Positions 15-10,569 of a DNA stretch of 25,734 nucleotides are shown piece by piece; the first letter of the stretch is position 1; every line of letters starts with the position of its first letter. Source of the DNA: a virus; IMG/VR virus record IMGVR_UViG_3300027906_000138, positions 1 through 25,734 of that record. The stretch is one strand, 5' to 3'. Below the pieces are notes generated by a model. It saw nothing but the letters and a program-made list of their open reading frames with translations, had not been told where the DNA came from and ran no database searches. Position numbers and translations under genes: made by a program.

Positions 15-74
15 GTCTAACTGATGAGATTTTAATAATCGAAACTAACTAAGTTCGCTTAGTTAGTCTTAGAC
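15..74 (+). ncRNA. Type I hammerhead ribozyme, copy 1
   Basis: Full hammerhead core is visible. Stem I 5' strand GTCTAA (15-20), box CTGATGA (21-27), stem II GATT/AATC (28-31 with 37-40, loop TTAAT), GAAA (41-44), stem III of 9 bp (45-53 with 58-66) closed by a TTCG loop, cleavage triplet GTC (66-68), stem I 3' strand TTAGAC (69-74). The open end lies in stem I, so this is type I. Predicted scission follows C68, 37 nt before the start codon of the next gene. Three further copies with compensatory stem changes follow downstream. The fold was made by eye; the core is complete. Confidence 0.9.
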
Positions 75-86
75 AATCAAGTCTAA
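69..86 (+). promoter_or_regulatory. Post-cleavage 5' hairpin, unit 1
   Basis: TTAGAC (69-74), loop AATCAA, GTCTAA (81-86) form a 6-bp hairpin. It uses the same TTAGAC strand as ribozyme stem I, so it is mutually exclusive with the uncleaved fold. After cleavage it would begin exactly at the new 5' end and stop 6 nt before the AAAGGA ribosome binding site. The inferred role is to make cleavage irreversible and protect the 5' end of the mRNA. Confidence 0.7.
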
Positions 87-105
87 TTAATGAAAGGAAA
101 ATATT

Positions 106-255
106 ATGACTACAACAACAATAGCAACAATTATTATAATTGCTTTAGTTTTCGGCGTTGTTTCTGGACTAGCTTATTGGTTAGCAGGACCAACTTTAGA
201 GGACTTTGATAAAAAAGCTGAGTTTTATAACTCACTTACAAGGGAGGATTTCTAA
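106..255 (+). CDS. Small single-pass membrane protein (49 aa)
   Basis: ATG at 106 lies 7 nt after an AAAGGA ribosome binding site, the same leader as the next ribozyme-headed genes. The protein has a Thr-rich N terminus, one hydrophobic segment (about residues 6-27, rich in Ile, Val, Ala and Leu) and a short charged C-terminal tail (about residues 31-49), typical of a small single-pass inner-membrane protein. It is the first gene of the first hammerhead-released unit, and its stop is followed directly by the next gene (ATG at 257). No family recognised. Small phage membrane proteins of this type often act in superinfection exclusion or lysis control, but nothing here specifies that. Confidence 0.7.
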   Translation: MTTTTIATIIIIALVFGVVSGLAYWLAGPTLEDFDKKAEFYNSLTREDF

Positions 256-256
256 A

Positions 257-658
257 ATGGGAAATAGAGCAGTTATTACAATTAAAGATGATTACTTAAA
301 CAAAGAAGATTGGCCTTCAATTTATCTACATTGGAACGGCGGTTTAGATACAGTTCAACCAATGTTAGATGTCGCAAAGGAGTATAGGATTAGATGCGAG
401 TCGCAATATGGCACAGCCAGACTGGCTCAACTATTCGCCAATTATTTTGGCGGAACTCTAAGCGTTGGTGTCGGTCCATATAAAAGACAAGATGTGGACA
501 ACTACGACAACGGCGTCTATATAATAGGCGATAATTGGGAGATAGTTGAAAGGGAATACAATAGAAATCCTGAACAACAATACCATGATTATGATGAGAT
601 GGTTGAGTCTATTAAAAAGATAAATGACCCAATTTTTAAAGAAGAAAAGTCTAACTGA
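257..658 (+). CDS. Conserved phage hypothetical protein (GNRAVI / YLHWNGG type, 133 aa)
   Basis: ATG at 257 is chosen over an upstream in-frame ATG at 206 because the 206 start would overlap the preceding gene, while AGGGAGG sits 9 nt upstream of 257. The N terminus GNRAVI and the IYLHWNGG motif (about residues 22-29), followed by a GVYII strand, match a recurrent but functionally uncharacterised phage/plasmid family as I remember it. It shares the first ribozyme-released unit with the 49-aa membrane protein. Its last codons (AAG TCT AAC TGA) double as the stem I strand and the first bases of the core of hammerhead 2, so the stop codon lies inside the CTGACGA box. Function unknown. Confidence 0.8.
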   Translation: MGNRAVITIKDDYLNKEDWPSIYLHWNGGLDTVQPMLDVAKEYRIRCESQYGTARLAQLFANYFGGTLSVGVGPYKRQDVDNYDNGVYIIGDNWEIVEREYNRNPEQQYHDYDEMVESIKKINDPIFKEEKSN

Positions 659-709
659 CGAGGATTAAATATCCGAAACTAAGCTAATTAAGTTAGCTTA
701 GTCTTAGAC
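649..709 (+). ncRNA. Type I hammerhead ribozyme, copy 2
   Basis: Stem I GTCTAA (649-654)/TTAGAC (704-709), core CTGACGA (655-661), stem II GGAT/ATCC (662-665 with 671-674, loop TAAAT), GAAA (675-678), 9-bp stem III (679-687 with 693-701, loop TTAAG), triplet GTC (701-703). Predicted cleavage follows C703. Compared with copy 1, stem II changes from GATT/AATC to GGAT/ATCC with pairing kept, and stem III is re-sequenced but still fully paired. The 5' part overlaps the 3' end of the preceding coding sequence, including its TGA stop (656-658). Confidence 0.92.
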
Positions 710-721
710 AATCAAGTCTAA
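704..721 (+). promoter_or_regulatory. Post-cleavage 5' hairpin, unit 2
   Basis: TTAGAC (704-709), loop AATCAA and GTCTAA (716-721) repeat exactly the hairpin found after copy 1. It would be the first structure on the released mRNA for the 64-aa gene, a few nucleotides upstream of its AAAGGA site. It competes with ribozyme stem I for the same strand. Confidence 0.7.
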
Positions 722-740
722 CAACGAAAGGAAAAATATT

Positions 741-935
741 ATGAGCGCATTACAAAGAGAAATTATATCTCTAAAAAAAACAATTAAAGAAAATGAGGAA
801 ACTATTAAAAATGTAAGAAAGCAAGTTTTAATGAGAGAGGAGCAAATTGATATAATCCTTCAATTTGTTGAAGCTAAAGATTTATTTAAAATAAAAAAAG
901 CTATTGGAGAAATCAATGTTGATAACTGGCTTTAA
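741..935 (+). CDS. Small coiled-coil protein (64 aa)
   Basis: ATG at 741 follows an AAAGGA site (727-732) in the standard ribozyme-linked leader. Residues about 1-45 are highly charged (Lys/Glu-rich) with heptad-like spacing of Ile/Leu/Val, predicting a helical coiled coil, probably oligomeric. The C terminus is short and ends in DNWL. It is the only gene on the 308-nt RNA predicted to be released by hammerheads 2 and 3. No recognisable family or catalytic motif; a small regulatory or inhibitor protein is possible but unproven. Confidence 0.75.
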   Translation: MSALQREIISLKKTIKENEETIKNVRKQVLMREEQIDIILQFVEAKDLFKIKKAIGEINVDNWL

Positions 936-948
936 GATTAATAAAAAA

Positions 949-1017
949 GTCTAACTGACGAGGATTAAATATCCGAAACTTAGTTACTGAGCGACCGCAG
1001 GTAACTAAGTCTTAGAC
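949..1017 (+). ncRNA. Type I hammerhead ribozyme, copy 3 (extended stem III loop)
   Basis: Stem I GTCTAA (949-954)/TTAGAC (1012-1017), core CTGACGA (955-961), stem II GGAT/ATCC (962-974), GAAA (975-978), stem III 979-987 with 1001-1009 (9 bp), triplet GTC (1009-1011). Predicted cleavage follows C1011. Stem III has a sequence different from the other copies yet is fully paired, and its terminal loop is 12 nt and GC-rich (988-1000 region) instead of 4-5 nt. It lies 13 nt after the stop of the 64-aa gene. Confidence 0.9.
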
Positions 1018-1029
1018 AATCAAGTCTAA
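1012..1029 (+). promoter_or_regulatory. Post-cleavage 5' hairpin, unit 3
   Basis: TTAGAC (1012-1017), loop AATCAA, GTCTAA (1024-1029). This is the third exact copy of the hairpin that would form at the 5' end of the cleaved RNA. It ends a few bases upstream of the AAAGGA ribosome binding site for the gene starting at 1050. Confidence 0.7.
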
Positions 1030-1049
1030 TTAATTAAAGGAAAAATATT

Positions 1050-1316
1050 ATGGAATATATATTAACAATAACCAAAGGTGAAAGAGATGAAAGTTCAAAG
1101 TATTTTGAAGCTACATTAACCGAGGAAGGTAACAGTTCTAACGAAATTGATTTTTTTAGAAGTAAATCAGAAGAAGCTGTTGTGAAATTTATTAATAAAG
1201 TAACGGAAGAATATGGTTTTGAGTATCATAACCTTTACCCCAACGATTATATGCTTGAATATTTAAAAAAGTTTATTGATGGTGGAAATCAAATTTGGGC
1301 TATTTATTCAAGATAA
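1050..1316 (+). CDS. Hypothetical protein (88 aa)
   Basis: ATG at 1050 follows AAAGGA and the AATATT spacer shared by the ribozyme-headed genes. The 88-aa product is acidic in its middle and rich in aromatic residues toward the C terminus (FEYHNLYPNDYM, QIWAIYSR). The pattern suggests a small alpha/beta fold with an N-terminal strand (YILTITKG). No signal peptide, membrane segment or catalytic motif is visible and I recognise no family. It is the sole gene on the 367-nt RNA predicted between hammerheads 3 and 4. Its stop lies 8 nt upstream of hammerhead 4. Confidence 0.75.
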   Translation: MEYILTITKGERDESSKYFEATLTEEGNSSNEIDFFRSKSEEAVVKFINKVTEEYGFEYHNLYPNDYMLEYLKKFIDGGNQIWAIYSR

Positions 1317-1323
1317 TCAACAA

Positions 1324-1384
1324 GTCTAACTGAGGAGATTTTAATAATCGAAACTAAGCTAATTAAGTTAGCTTAGTCTTAGAC
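1324..1384 (+). ncRNA. Type I hammerhead ribozyme, copy 4 (no downstream hairpin)
   Basis: Stem I GTCTAA (1324-1329)/TTAGAC (1379-1384), core CTGAGGA (1330-1336; the variable N is G), stem II GATT/AATC (1337-1349), GAAA (1350-1353), stem III 1354-1362 with 1368-1376, triplet GTC (1376-1378). Predicted cleavage follows C1378. Unlike copies 1-3, the sequence after TTAGAC lacks a second GTCTAA, so the post-cleavage 5' hairpin is missing and the leader to the next ATG is longer (64 nt). The long remainder of the operon would begin here. Confidence 0.88.
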
Positions 1385-1442: not shown

Positions 1443-1670
1443 ATGACAAAAAAATTAATTAAAACCTATAAAGGTAAATTATCTGAGGTTTCAGCACAAA
1501 TAAAAGCTGAAGCTGAAGAATATAAGGAACAGGAATTCGCTAAAGAAAATCCTAGTTTTGTTAAACTTAATGACGCCATTGTTAGTCCAAATGAGTTACT
1601 GGACAGAATGGTTAAAATGGGCAATATAACTAAAGCTAGAGCCGAAGAACTTAAAAGAACTATTAAATGA
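1443..1670 (+). CDS. Small charged helical protein (75 aa)
   Basis: ATG at 1443 is preferred over an in-frame TTG at 1392 because GGAAAGGAAAC precedes it at the spacing used throughout this operon. The product is Lys/Glu-rich and predicted mainly helical (about residues 11-36, then a C-terminal helix from about residue 50 including the AKxRAEELKR segment), with no membrane segment. It is the first gene after hammerhead 4. A 22-codon ORF starts inside its stop codon (ATGA). Family and function not recognised. Confidence 0.7.
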   Translation: MTKKLIKTYKGKLSEVSAQIKAEAEEYKEQEFAKENPSFVKLNDAIVSPNELLDRMVKMGNITKARAEELKRTIK

Positions 1671-4785: not shown

Positions 4786-6198
4786 TTAAACAACACCTTT
4801 AATATCTCTAACTAAAGGTTGTTTCCAATCTCTTGCGTATGAACCTGACCGAGAAGCTATAGCATCACCTGCCATTAATAAAACTAAAGCATCGGCAACA
4901 TCTGGTGAGCGACCAATTCTTTTTTTGATCTGATCTTTTGACTCGACTTGTATTTTACCACCAGCAGTAAATTTATATTTAACACTAATTAAATCAGCAA
5001 TCATGTATTCATTAGAGGGTAATTTACACATTTTACTCTCTAAAAAAGATCTAAACTTAAACCATAACTCACTTCGCAAATTCATATATGTTTCTTTCTG
5101 ACTAGGGCTTTCTGCCACATTGATTCCTACAGCGTTTAATCTTCCAATAGCATTAAGACTATCTAAAACACCATAACCCATGCCTATAACATCTATATAG
5201 ACTTCTACAGGCCTATTTTCTGGCTCTGTAGTATCAAATTCAGCTTGAACTCTGCCGCTTAACTCCATTAAATCTAAACGCTTCCATGTTTTTATATCTG
5301 TTATAATGTTTCCTTGTTTTTTAACAAGAACTGAACTATCTGCACCATGTCTTGCTACATCTAACGCCCATATTGTATCAGATATACCATGGTCATTAGG
5401 TATTTCTCTTTGTATAGCTGAGTCAACTAACTCTAAAGGTATAATAGTATCATCTGTTTCTTCTGCAAATTCGCCTAATACTCTAACTTTATATGCTGAA
5501 CTTTCTTCGCCATAACGCATAGCCATTTCTTCAACAAATTCATCTGATACTCTATCACTATCAAAAGCAGATATATGAAAAGTTTTCCATGCACCTTTTA
5601 ATTTATGGTGCGTATCATAAAATAGACCAGAATTTCTTGTTGGGTTTCCTAATAAAATTGTGTGAACATTATGTCCTGACATAGAACCGGCCGCTGATTC
5701 AAACACTTCTTCAGGGATTCCTGATGCTTCATCACAAAGCAAGATAACTTTACCTTGACTATGAACACCAGCTAACGCTTCAGGTTGTTCTTTTCTTGAG
5801 GTTCTAGCAGATATAAATGCTTCAGCACTTCTTGATTTTAAAACTATTCTATCACTTTTTACATCAACTAAGTCTTGTAATGGTTGTGGCATTTCACCAA
5901 TCCATTTCTTTAGTTCGGCAAACAAAGCATCAAACAACTGACCACTTGTTGGAGCAGTTACAATAAGTTTACAATCAAGGTGTGTAAGTAAAGTATGTAT
6001 TAATATCCAACTTGCAACAGAAGATTTACCAACACCGTGAGCAGAACGAACAGATACTTTTCTTTCGCCAGAAACAATAGCTTCCATTAGTTCAGACTGC
6101 CATTTATCTGGTGAAATACCTAAAACATTTTCACAAAAAAGAGTTGGCTCTTTCTTATAAGTTTTAATAAAATCTACAAATGGATTAGGTTGATTCAT
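4786..6198 (-). CDS. terL: Terminase large subunit
   Basis: A 470-aa packaging motor. The N-terminal ATPase has Walker A SAHGVGKSS (52-60, Lys58), Walker B VILLCDE (151-157) and coupling motif GNPT (184-187). The C-terminal RNase H-like nuclease has ALDVARHG (Asp280), a YIDVIGMGYG segment and a terminal DVADALVLL motif supplying the other metal-binding acids. It docks at the portal, drives ATP-dependent DNA packaging and cuts genome ends. Its start overlaps the 2OG oxygenase by 14 nt, and it is the last gene of the long minus-strand replication operon. Length and motif order are normal for the family. No small terminase subunit is recognisable by sequence nearby. Confidence 0.96.
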   Translation of the reverse strand: MNQPNPFVDFIKTYKKEPTLFCENVLGISPDKWQSELMEAIVSGERKVSVRSAHGVGKSSVASWILIHTLLTHLDCKLIVTAPTSGQLFDALFAELKKWIGEMPQPLQDLVDVKSDRIVLKSRSAEAFISARTSRKEQPEALAGVHSQGKVILLCDEASGIPEEVFESAAGSMSGHNVHTILLGNPTRNSGLFYDTHHKLKGAWKTFHISAFDSDRVSDEFVEEMAMRYGEESSAYKVRVLGEFAEETDDTIIPLELVDSAIQREIPNDHGISDTIWALDVARHGADSSVLVKKQGNIITDIKTWKRLDLMELSGRVQAEFDTTEPENRPVEVYIDVIGMGYGVLDSLNAIGRLNAVGINVAESPSQKETYMNLRSELWFKFRSFLESKMCKLPSNEYMIADLISVKYKFTAGGKIQVESKDQIKKRIGRSPDVADALVLLMAGDAIASRSGSYARDWKQPLVRDIKGVV

Positions 6199-8752: not shown

Positions 8753-10569
8753 ATCTTTTCGTTCCAAACACCAATTATGTCTTTGTTTTGTAAACCTAAT
8801 ATACTTCTCTTTAATATCTGATTCTTTTGACTGTTAGTTTTTTCAGTTAGTTGAGGTAAAACAGAAAACTCTATATGACTTAATGTAATATATTTCTTTT
8901 CACCGACATCTGCATTAATCCAATCTTCTTTTGCGATCTCTGAATCCATAACATTAACAATAGTATCATAAACAAGTTTTTGATTCGCACCCAATTTAGG
9001 TATAAATGGTGTATGAATAGTGTTTGTATCTTCTTTTACTCTCTCTAAAGTAACAGAAGTTTCTCCAATCAACGCTCTTGATTCAACTTCAAGAGCAATA
9101 TCTTCTAAAGATTCAGCGTCTTTTTGTTTCTGAACTTCAAGATGAACATTAGGTTTTGAATACTTACAGAAGATAGAGGTATCAACACCACCTAATAATG
9201 CACTAGAACCTCTTAATCCAGCAGTTTCACTTTTGCCTGAATGATGAATAACTAATACAGCACAGTTAATATTTTCTCTTATGTAGTCGCATGAACTTAT
9301 AAAAGCACCCATATCACTTGCACTATTCTCATCTGAACCTGCATTAGATAATGCTCTAGCAACTGTATCTACAACTACAAGTTTAAAATCTTTTCCTATG
9401 TGATTAATTGTTTTAACTAATTTATCAAGTTCATCTTGATCTAAAAAGTTAATTGTTTGTGCAAGTAAATGAAAGTTTGGTGTTGTTTCAGGTTTGTTTT
9501 TCATTAACCATGCTTTGATTCTTTTCTTTAAACCCCCTACACCCTCACTTGCTACATATAAAGTTTTACCCTCTACTGCTGATAGACCTTGCCAATCTCT
9601 GCTTGAAGCTATTGATAGACTCATATCTAAGGCACAGAATGTTTTATAACTAGCTGGTTGCCCATAGATAACTGCAAGACCATTTTCTGGTATTAAATTT
9701 TCAATTAGAAACTTTTGATTTTTTAAACTTAAAATATCACCAATAGCCATTGTAGGAAAAATATTAATATCTGATTTTTCATAAGTTTCAGCACTTAATA
9801 TAAGCTGTTCTAAGTCGCCACCTTGTTCTAAGAAATCTGTTATATCTTGCTTTTCAGAAACTTTGCCCTCTAATTTCACAATATGAACGCTCTCAGAAGC
9901 CGTTAGAATAGAGTTTGCGACCTTGTCTATATGTAAGTAACCCGCAGAATCGTTATCTGGAATTAAAATAACTCGTCTATCTTTAAACCATTTGTTTAAA
10001 GAATCGTGCCAGTTCTTACTGCCACCACTATTTGTTGTAGCAAGAAAACCTAAAGACATTAATCTATCTGCGTCTTTCTCGCCCTCAACAATAAATATTG
10101 TTTTATCTTTTTGCTCTAATATCTCAGGTAAATTATAAGGTAAAGGTTCAATGCCATTTAAACCCCAATGCCACTTATCATCTTTATAATGTCTTTGTCT
10201 AAAATCTTTAGGTTGATAACGAATAACTTGGTATCTAACTTCGCCTAATTCATTTCTATAATTATACTTAGCAACAACTTTTCTTTCTTTGCTTTTTAAT
10301 GTGTGTTTTTCTGTAATCTTATCGCCTATATTAAATTCATTATAAAGATATTCTGATAAGTCTTTACCTGATAAACCTTTGCTTTTCATTATTAAATCTA
10401 TTAAACCACCACCTTCGTTTTCTTCAAAATCAAAGTAAGTTGCATTTTCTAAATCAATAGCTTTACTTAATCTTTTACCAAATCGCCACTCATTTTCATT
10501 TTTAAGAGTTGGTTCGCCCCAACACTCTTGAGATACAAATTTAATGGCTTCTATATATTTCTTATCCAA
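8740..10569 (-). CDS. Phage primase/helicase (TOPRIM plus RecA-like RepA-type ATPase)
   Basis: A 609-aa replication protein. The TOPRIM domain has IFIVEGEKDADRL (158-170, Glu162) and LIPDNDSAG (202-210, Asp205/Asp207), the metal site for primer synthesis. The C-terminal AAA/RepA-like domain has Walker A GQPASYKT (303-310), Walker B LVVVDT (about 400) and VLVIHHSGK, with LRGSSALLGGVD downstream. No N-terminal zinc-binding domain is obvious. It probably primes and unwinds DNA at the phage fork. The start is TTG at 10569: AGGAG lies 6 nt upstream (complement of 10576-10580) and no ATG is available near the N terminus. It overlaps the TM microprotein at its 5' end and the 194-aa gene at its 3' end. 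Confidence 0.93.
   Translation of the reverse strand: MDKKYIEAIKFVSQECWGEPTLKNENEWRFGKRLSKAIDLENATYFDFEENEGGGLIDLIMKSKGLSGKDLSEYLYNEFNIGDKITEKHTLKSKERKVVAKYNYRNELGEVRYQVIRYQPKDFRQRHYKDDKWHWGLNGIEPLPYNLPEILEQKDKTIFIVEGEKDADRLMSLGFLATTNSGGSKNWHDSLNKWFKDRRVILIPDNDSAGYLHIDKVANSILTASESVHIVKLEGKVSEKQDITDFLEQGGDLEQLILSAETYEKSDINIFPTMAIGDILSLKNQKFLIENLIPENGLAVIYGQPASYKTFCALDMSLSIASSRDWQGLSAVEGKTLYVASEGVGGLKKRIKAWLMKNKPETTPNFHLLAQTINFLDQDELDKLVKTINHIGKDFKLVVVDTVARALSNAGSDENSASDMGAFISSCDYIRENINCAVLVIHHSGKSETAGLRGSSALLGGVDTSIFCKYSKPNVHLEVQKQKDAESLEDIALEVESRALIGETSVTLERVKEDTNTIHTPFIPKLGANQKLVYDTIVNVMDSEIAKEDWINADVGEKKYITLSHIEFSVLPQLTEKTNSQKNQILKRSILGLQNKDIIGVWNEKIWLS

Follow-up and report, generated by a model that had tools for sequence, protein, structure and literature searches.

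Why should a self-cleaving ribozyme be followed directly by a second copy of one of its own strands? The question is raised by the first 1.4 kb of the window (the whole 25,734-nucleotide stretch of marine phage DNA analysed here), where four copies of a 60–69-nucleotide unit lie on the plus strand, each directly upstream of a small open reading frame (Table 1). A scan for core and stems finds in all four the type-I hammerhead core CUGANGA...GAAA...UH, ending at the cleavage site, and three helices: a 6-bp stem I (GUCUAA/UUAGAC), a 4-bp stem II with a loop of UUAAU or UAAAU, and a stem III of 9–10 bp, with cleavage predicted after GUC. Stems II and III are closed by loops and stem I is open-ended, as in type I. 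Core position 7, at which the hammerhead tolerates variation, is U, C, C and G in copies 1 to 4. Conserved features are loop II, which reads U-N-A-A-U, and the A on either side of the 6-bp stem I, a sequence pattern that suggests putative tertiary contacts between loop II and stem I, which would favour fast cleavage.

Table 1 Ribozymes, product hairpins and genes at the start of the window.
Feature	Position	Strand	Details
Hammerhead copy 1, type I	15–74	+	Core and stem scan; Rfam RAGATH-1-hammerhead, 29.2 bits; stem I 15–20/69–74, CUGAUGA 21–27, stem II 28–40, GAAA 41–44, stem III 45–66; predicted cleavage 68/69
Product hairpin copy 1	69–86	+	Product fold −5.1 kcal/mol; shuffle P 0.0014; starts at product nucleotide 1
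Shine–Dalgarno-like AAAGGA, gene A	93–98	+	Sequence; gene A starts at 106
Gene A	106–255	+	49-residue predicted small membrane protein
Gene B	257–658	+	133 residues; without a hammerhead of its own
Hammerhead copy 2	649–709	+	Stem I 649–654/704–709, CUGACGA 655–661; predicted cleavage 703/704
Product hairpin copy 2	704–721	+	Product fold −5.0 kcal/mol; upstream of gene C
AAAGGA, copy 2	727–732	+	
Gene C	741–935	+	Downstream of copy-2 product hairpin
Hammerhead copy 3	949–1017	+	Stem I 949–954/1012–1017, CUGACGA 955–961; longer stem III; predicted cleavage 1011/1012
Product hairpin copy 3	1012–1029	+	Product fold −5.1 kcal/mol; upstream of gene D
AAAGGA, copy 3	1036–1041	+	
Gene D	1050–1316	+	Downstream of copy-3 product hairpin
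Hammerhead copy 4	1324–1384	+	CUGAGGA core; predicted cleavage 1378/1379; no product hairpin
Gene E	1443–1670	+	64-nucleotide leader after copy-4 cut

In Rfam, copies 1 and 4 come closest to RAGATH-1-hammerhead (RF03152; 29.2 and 30.1 bits), which has the same core and stem layout as the window copies; its model has no downstream product hairpin, and its upstream 5′ hairpin is only weakly matched by them. Neither copy reaches the gathering threshold of 56.3, and at gathering thresholds there are no Rfam matches in the window or in the related loci L405, L406, L349, L341, L086 and L119. Membership at curated thresholds is thus rejected, and annotation at such thresholds misses the hammerheads of the window and of the related loci tested.

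The copy-2 ribozyme core takes in the stop codon of gene B (UGA, 656–658), so that ribosomes ending gene B would run into the ribozyme. Within the leader of copy 4 (1385–1442) is the region's best promoter-like match (TTGACA-17-TATTTT at 1392–1420, 10 of 12); such matches as a whole are no more frequent than expected from shuffled sequence, and gene E may have a promoter of its own. This leader, again with no hairpin, also stands before the gene E orthologue in L005. The terminase large subunit encoded further downstream (4786–6198) is at most 51% identical to that of any phage record, from an uncultured spring-water phage, and 49% identical to that of Sinorhizobium phage phiM5, placing the window phage at a distance from cultured phages. 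Neither the window nor L349 had an informative relative among phage records in BLAST searches.

Directly 3′ of the predicted cleavage sites of copies 1–3 is the sequence UUAGAC-AAUCAA-GUCUAA, exactly as the original prediction had it, and its UUAGAC is also the strand that pairs with the upstream GUCUAA in stem I. The downstream arm is thus present, but each unit holds only two copies of GUCUAA; the 'third copy' of that prediction is better described as the third strand of a three-strand exchange. Products cleaved after positions 68, 703 and 1011 would begin UUAGACAAUCAAGUCUAA and are predicted to fold into a perfect 6-bp terminal hairpin, in which nucleotides 2–6 are paired with a probability of at least 0.94 and the first nucleotide with one of about 0.65. 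The predicted hairpin would sit at the newly made 5′ end, ahead of the ribosome-binding site, and the folding energies of the predicted products together with the spacing of Shine–Dalgarno sequence and ATG support the proposal that the released RNA could form it there. In copy 4 the downstream GUCUAA is missing, and the predicted leader is unfolded.

In shuffled leaders, a perfect 6-bp anchored hairpin with a loop of 3–8 nucleotides arises by chance at about 0.0012–0.0014 per copy. Copies 1–3 are duplicates, however, so the hairpin counts as one event and not three. The hairpin is not independent of the ribozyme strands, its 5′ arm being the 3′ strand of stem I. Conservation among the window copies was rejected as evidence of selection owing to their paralogy. 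The conserved loop, also put forward in support, fares no better: an A follows stem I in 179 of 203 hammerheads with a six-bp stem I, most of them without a strong hairpin, so the loop A's are not creditable to the hairpin.

Selection was assessed on viral contigs scanned with hammerhead patterns silent on the sequence downstream of stem I (one further pattern demanded nothing there but CA where stem I ends). Together with phage genomes, those of five pelagiphages among them, the contigs gave a set of 470 distinct hammerheads; representatives were taken at 80% identity, and downstream sequences were permuted by swapping them among elements. Hairpins anchored at the 5′ end (ΔG ≤ −3 kcal/mol, using four or more of product bases 1–6) occur in 28 of 230 representatives against 8.4 ± 2.6 in permuted sets (maximum 17 in 200). 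Product nucleotides 2–6 are paired with P > 0.8 in 27 of 262 representatives (8.3 ± 2.3 permuted, maximum 14 in 60) and, under a looser 72% clustering, in 18 of 152 (5.3 ± 1.9 permuted). At 65% clustering there are too few groups, and a simple pair-count test is not significant (3 versus 1.7). A mirrored control on the upstream strand of stem I gives no excess (9 versus 10.5 expected), which makes the excess specific to the product side; permutation and mirrored control together reject a chance origin of the hairpins.

Strong hairpins are confined to about 10% of the phage hammerheads sampled; this frequency and the hairpin-less copy 4 indicate that the ribozyme as such does not need it. Nearly all representatives (220 of 230) have an ATG-started open reading frame, mostly 20–40 nucleotides past the cut, as against 51%, dispersed, at control positions, and 142 of 230 have both an ATG and a Shine–Dalgarno-like motif, as against 15% of controls. 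About 40% of hammerhead-bearing loci have two or more hammerheads. Nearly all matches in a scan of bacterial genomes are attributable to chance; two plausible hammerheads are left, one of which, in a metagenome-assembled genome, has a GC-rich 5′ hairpin.

Sixty-four elements have at least five contiguous in-register pairs, representing 20 distinct combinations of stem-I strand and downstream arm. As stem I varies (GUCUAA, GUCUAG, GCCUAA, GUAACA, GCAACA, GAUACU, GCUACA, GCUAAC and GCAAGU), the downstream arm changes along with it, and the covariation at pairs 2–5 includes the types TA/GC, TA/AT, TA/GC/AT and AT/GC/GT/TA. These elements were chosen for pairing, so the list displays the pattern and the statistical weight rests on the permutation tests. 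In L321/L332 and L006 a stem-I pair is a G–U wobble, yet the arm is Watson–Crick with the product strand, and in L349, too, the arm is a better fit to the product strand than a copy of the ribozyme strand; L335 is the opposite case, its arm copying the ribozyme strand instead of taking the better fit to the product strand. The same picture comes from gene A-like proteins, which follow hammerhead and hairpin modules in L055, L028, L377 and L357: strand and arm ahead of them are UUAGAC/GUCUAA in the window, UUAGGC/GCUUAA in L055 and UUAGGC/GUCUAU in L028. Identity of three paralogues proves little for the earlier claim of selection; it is this covariation across divergent phages that supports a hairpin both real and selected.

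The GUAACA branch of the family belongs to the genus Pelagivirus (Autographiviridae), phages of Pelagibacter represented by HTVC031P, HTVC142P, HTVC168P, HTVC109P and Eistla. All five carry at least one hammerhead, unannotated, upstream of the phage RNA polymerase gene. In HTVC168P (TGTTAC-TATTCC-GTAACA) and Eistla (TGTTAC-AATAAC-GTAACA), perfect 6-bp hairpins whose arms are kept and whose loops have changed precede genes that are orthologous to each other (78% amino-acid identity) and lie upstream of the RNA polymerase gene. Predicted cuts are at 545/546 in HTVC168P and at 8839/8840 and 10098/10099 in Eistla. Strong hairpins are absent from the only hammerhead of HTVC031P, the only one of HTVC142P and the second of Eistla. 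In HTVC168P (L406, 480–560), stem I is flanked on both sides by U where most of the family has A, which suggests a paired change in a putative tertiary contact. The predicted hammerhead of HTVC109P (L407, 1111–1158) overlaps the annotated start of gp05 (1121–1387), which may therefore be misannotated.

Hammerhead modules are clearly duplicated ahead of unrelated genes. The DNA of gene D is 98% identical in L021 and L111 but lies behind a different hammerhead and hairpin module; between L021 and the window, the ribozyme module differs sharply almost up to the gene D start codon. A near-identical gene behind a different module indicates that genes and modules recombine. It is quite possible, if still tentative, that the module is a mobile leader cassette of phages, cultured SAR11 phages included, in which a co-transcriptional hammerhead cut is followed by a third strand that swaps with stem I, releasing and capping the product; the cassette would be reused before unrelated accessory genes and be exchangeable, giving each a standard insulated 5′ end.

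In simulated nascent folding of copies 1–3, stem I has a probability of 0.56–0.88 with 8–14 nucleotides exposed beyond the cut, and the hairpin dominates at 16–18 nucleotides (0.96–0.98 at 18). With 30 nucleotides exposed, the hairpin state is favoured by 3.4–3.8 kcal/mol in copies 1–3, 2.6 in Eistla and 0.7 in HTVC168P, in models that leave out the energy of the hammerhead core and tertiary contacts. In nearest-neighbour predictions for full-length RNA before cleavage, the hairpin has a probability of 0.88–0.93 and stem I of 0.001–0.04 in copies 1–3; stem I of the hairpin-less copy 4 has one of 0.55. Because the modelled hairpin outcompetes stem I before cleavage, a tension that the original prediction overlooked, cleavage would have to be co-transcriptional or helped by tertiary contacts; the equilibrium preference for the hairpin would inhibit the ribozyme if cleavage were slow.

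The best explanation, which we hold with moderate confidence, is that the hammerheads cut nascent operon RNA and that the second GUCUAA then captures the product strand, releasing and capping the message. The four hammerheads between the small genes of this rightward operon would cut the nascent polycistronic RNA about 37–38 nucleotides upstream of the start codons for copies 1–3 and 64 nucleotides upstream for copy 4. Stem I would form first, from the 5′ GUCUAA and UUAGAC, as the polymerase moves off the ribozyme, allowing cleavage between GUC and U. Once the next 16–18 nucleotides emerge, the second GUCUAA would capture the UUAGAC strand and expel the upstream RNA, leaving a terminal hairpin directly ahead of the Shine–Dalgarno sequence and blocking religation. 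The downstream mRNA would have a structured 5′ end with its 5′-OH buried in the hairpin, and the upstream mRNA would end in the stem II and III hairpins. Capture of this kind could make cleavage irreversible and protect the 5′-OH end, as the original prediction proposed, and might affect expression. From the elements, their covariation, their gene context and the predicted energetics we infer that the RNA is cut, in which order it folds, that the product is released and that stability or translation benefits; the recurrence of the hairpin with matching base changes suggests selection, probably for finishing or protecting processed messages.

The same energetics could instead describe a timer or attenuator, with the arm selected in the uncleaved RNA, competing with stem I and stopping the ribozyme if it is uncut within about 10 nucleotides of transcription; the processed fraction would then depend on transcription speed, temperature or Mg2+. 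The competitor arm does emerge right behind the ribozyme, and full-length copies 1–3 fold to the hairpin state whereas copy 4 retains stem I, but these models ignore the core and tertiary energy, and the conserved A's and loop II suggest putative tertiary contacts that would favour fast cleavage. The covariation fits a timer and capture with release alike, through the same pairings; we regard a timer as a live but unlikely alternative.

Two other readings are less likely still. It might be a functionless relic of a tandem duplication of the ribozyme 5′ end, carried along with the modules, and the plain duplication of modules ahead of unrelated genes, the arm of L335 and the copy 2 leader AAGTCTAACAACGAAAGG, which loosely resembles the ribozyme start AAGTCTAACTGACGAGG, are all in keeping with this. 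A relic is nevertheless very improbable given covariation in many unrelated stem-I sequences, the better fit to the product strand in L321/L332, L006 and L349, and arms kept while loops changed between HTVC168P and Eistla. Scarcely more credible is a translation element, in which the hairpin mainly fixes the folding of the leader and holds the ribosome-binding site open whether or not the RNA is cleaved. The hairpin of copies 1–3 ends 5–6 nucleotides before AAAGGA, the Shine–Dalgarno sequence is unpaired in the predicted products, and the added hairpin of RiboJ has been suggested to expose the ribosome-binding site (PMC6206723); against this, the leaders are rich in A, and those of copy 4 and of hairpin-less relatives are open as they stand.

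Capture and release by a third strand would add to what is described for related systems. Prokaryotic and phage hammerheads flank small unknown open reading frames, often several close together, and in haloviruses HF1 and HF2 one lies 13 nucleotides upstream of the helicase start codon; the available text of these accounts, which treats their role in phages and prokaryotes as an open question (PMC6155905), describes self-cleaving elements near small reading frames like those of the window, without mention of a downstream arm that takes over the stem-I product strand or of its covariation (PMC3088659; PMC6155905). In a literature search with most subscription journals outside its scope, a product hairpin sharing the stem-I strand was not found described. 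What is new is the strand-exchange product hairpin; the ribozyme itself is of no new kind, and hammerheads beside small phage reading frames were already known.

The synthetic insulator RiboJ likewise consists of a hammerhead followed by a hairpin that stays at the new 5′ end before the ribosome-binding site, where it is proposed to stabilise the RNA (PMC6206723). RiboJ, however, is engineered from sTRSV and has a separate 23-nucleotide hairpin, whereas that of the window occurs in nature and has one strand in common with stem I, which would couple cleavage to capping. Closer to the RiboJ layout are other phages, L030, L037, L086, L127 and L135, where a short, separate hairpin lies close to where stem I ends; those of L127 (GUCGAAAGAC / GGCGAAAGCC) and L086 (AGUC...GACU / AGUG...CACU) covary between copies within one phage. 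Early mRNA of phage T7 is processed by RNase III, and 5′ stem-loops that stabilise mRNA exist, for example in ompA. In T7, too, polycistronic phage RNA is cut between genes into units with structured ends, but there a host protein cuts, whereas in the window the RNA itself is predicted to do so, with 5′-OH and 2′,3′-cyclic phosphate ends expected.

The covarying strand-exchange hairpin suggests processing of mRNA in which the end is capped and the product set free, and the cultured phages HTVC168P and Eistla make it directly testable. If the proposal is true, phages of abundant marine bacteria would have in this hairpin a natural equivalent of the RiboJ insulator.
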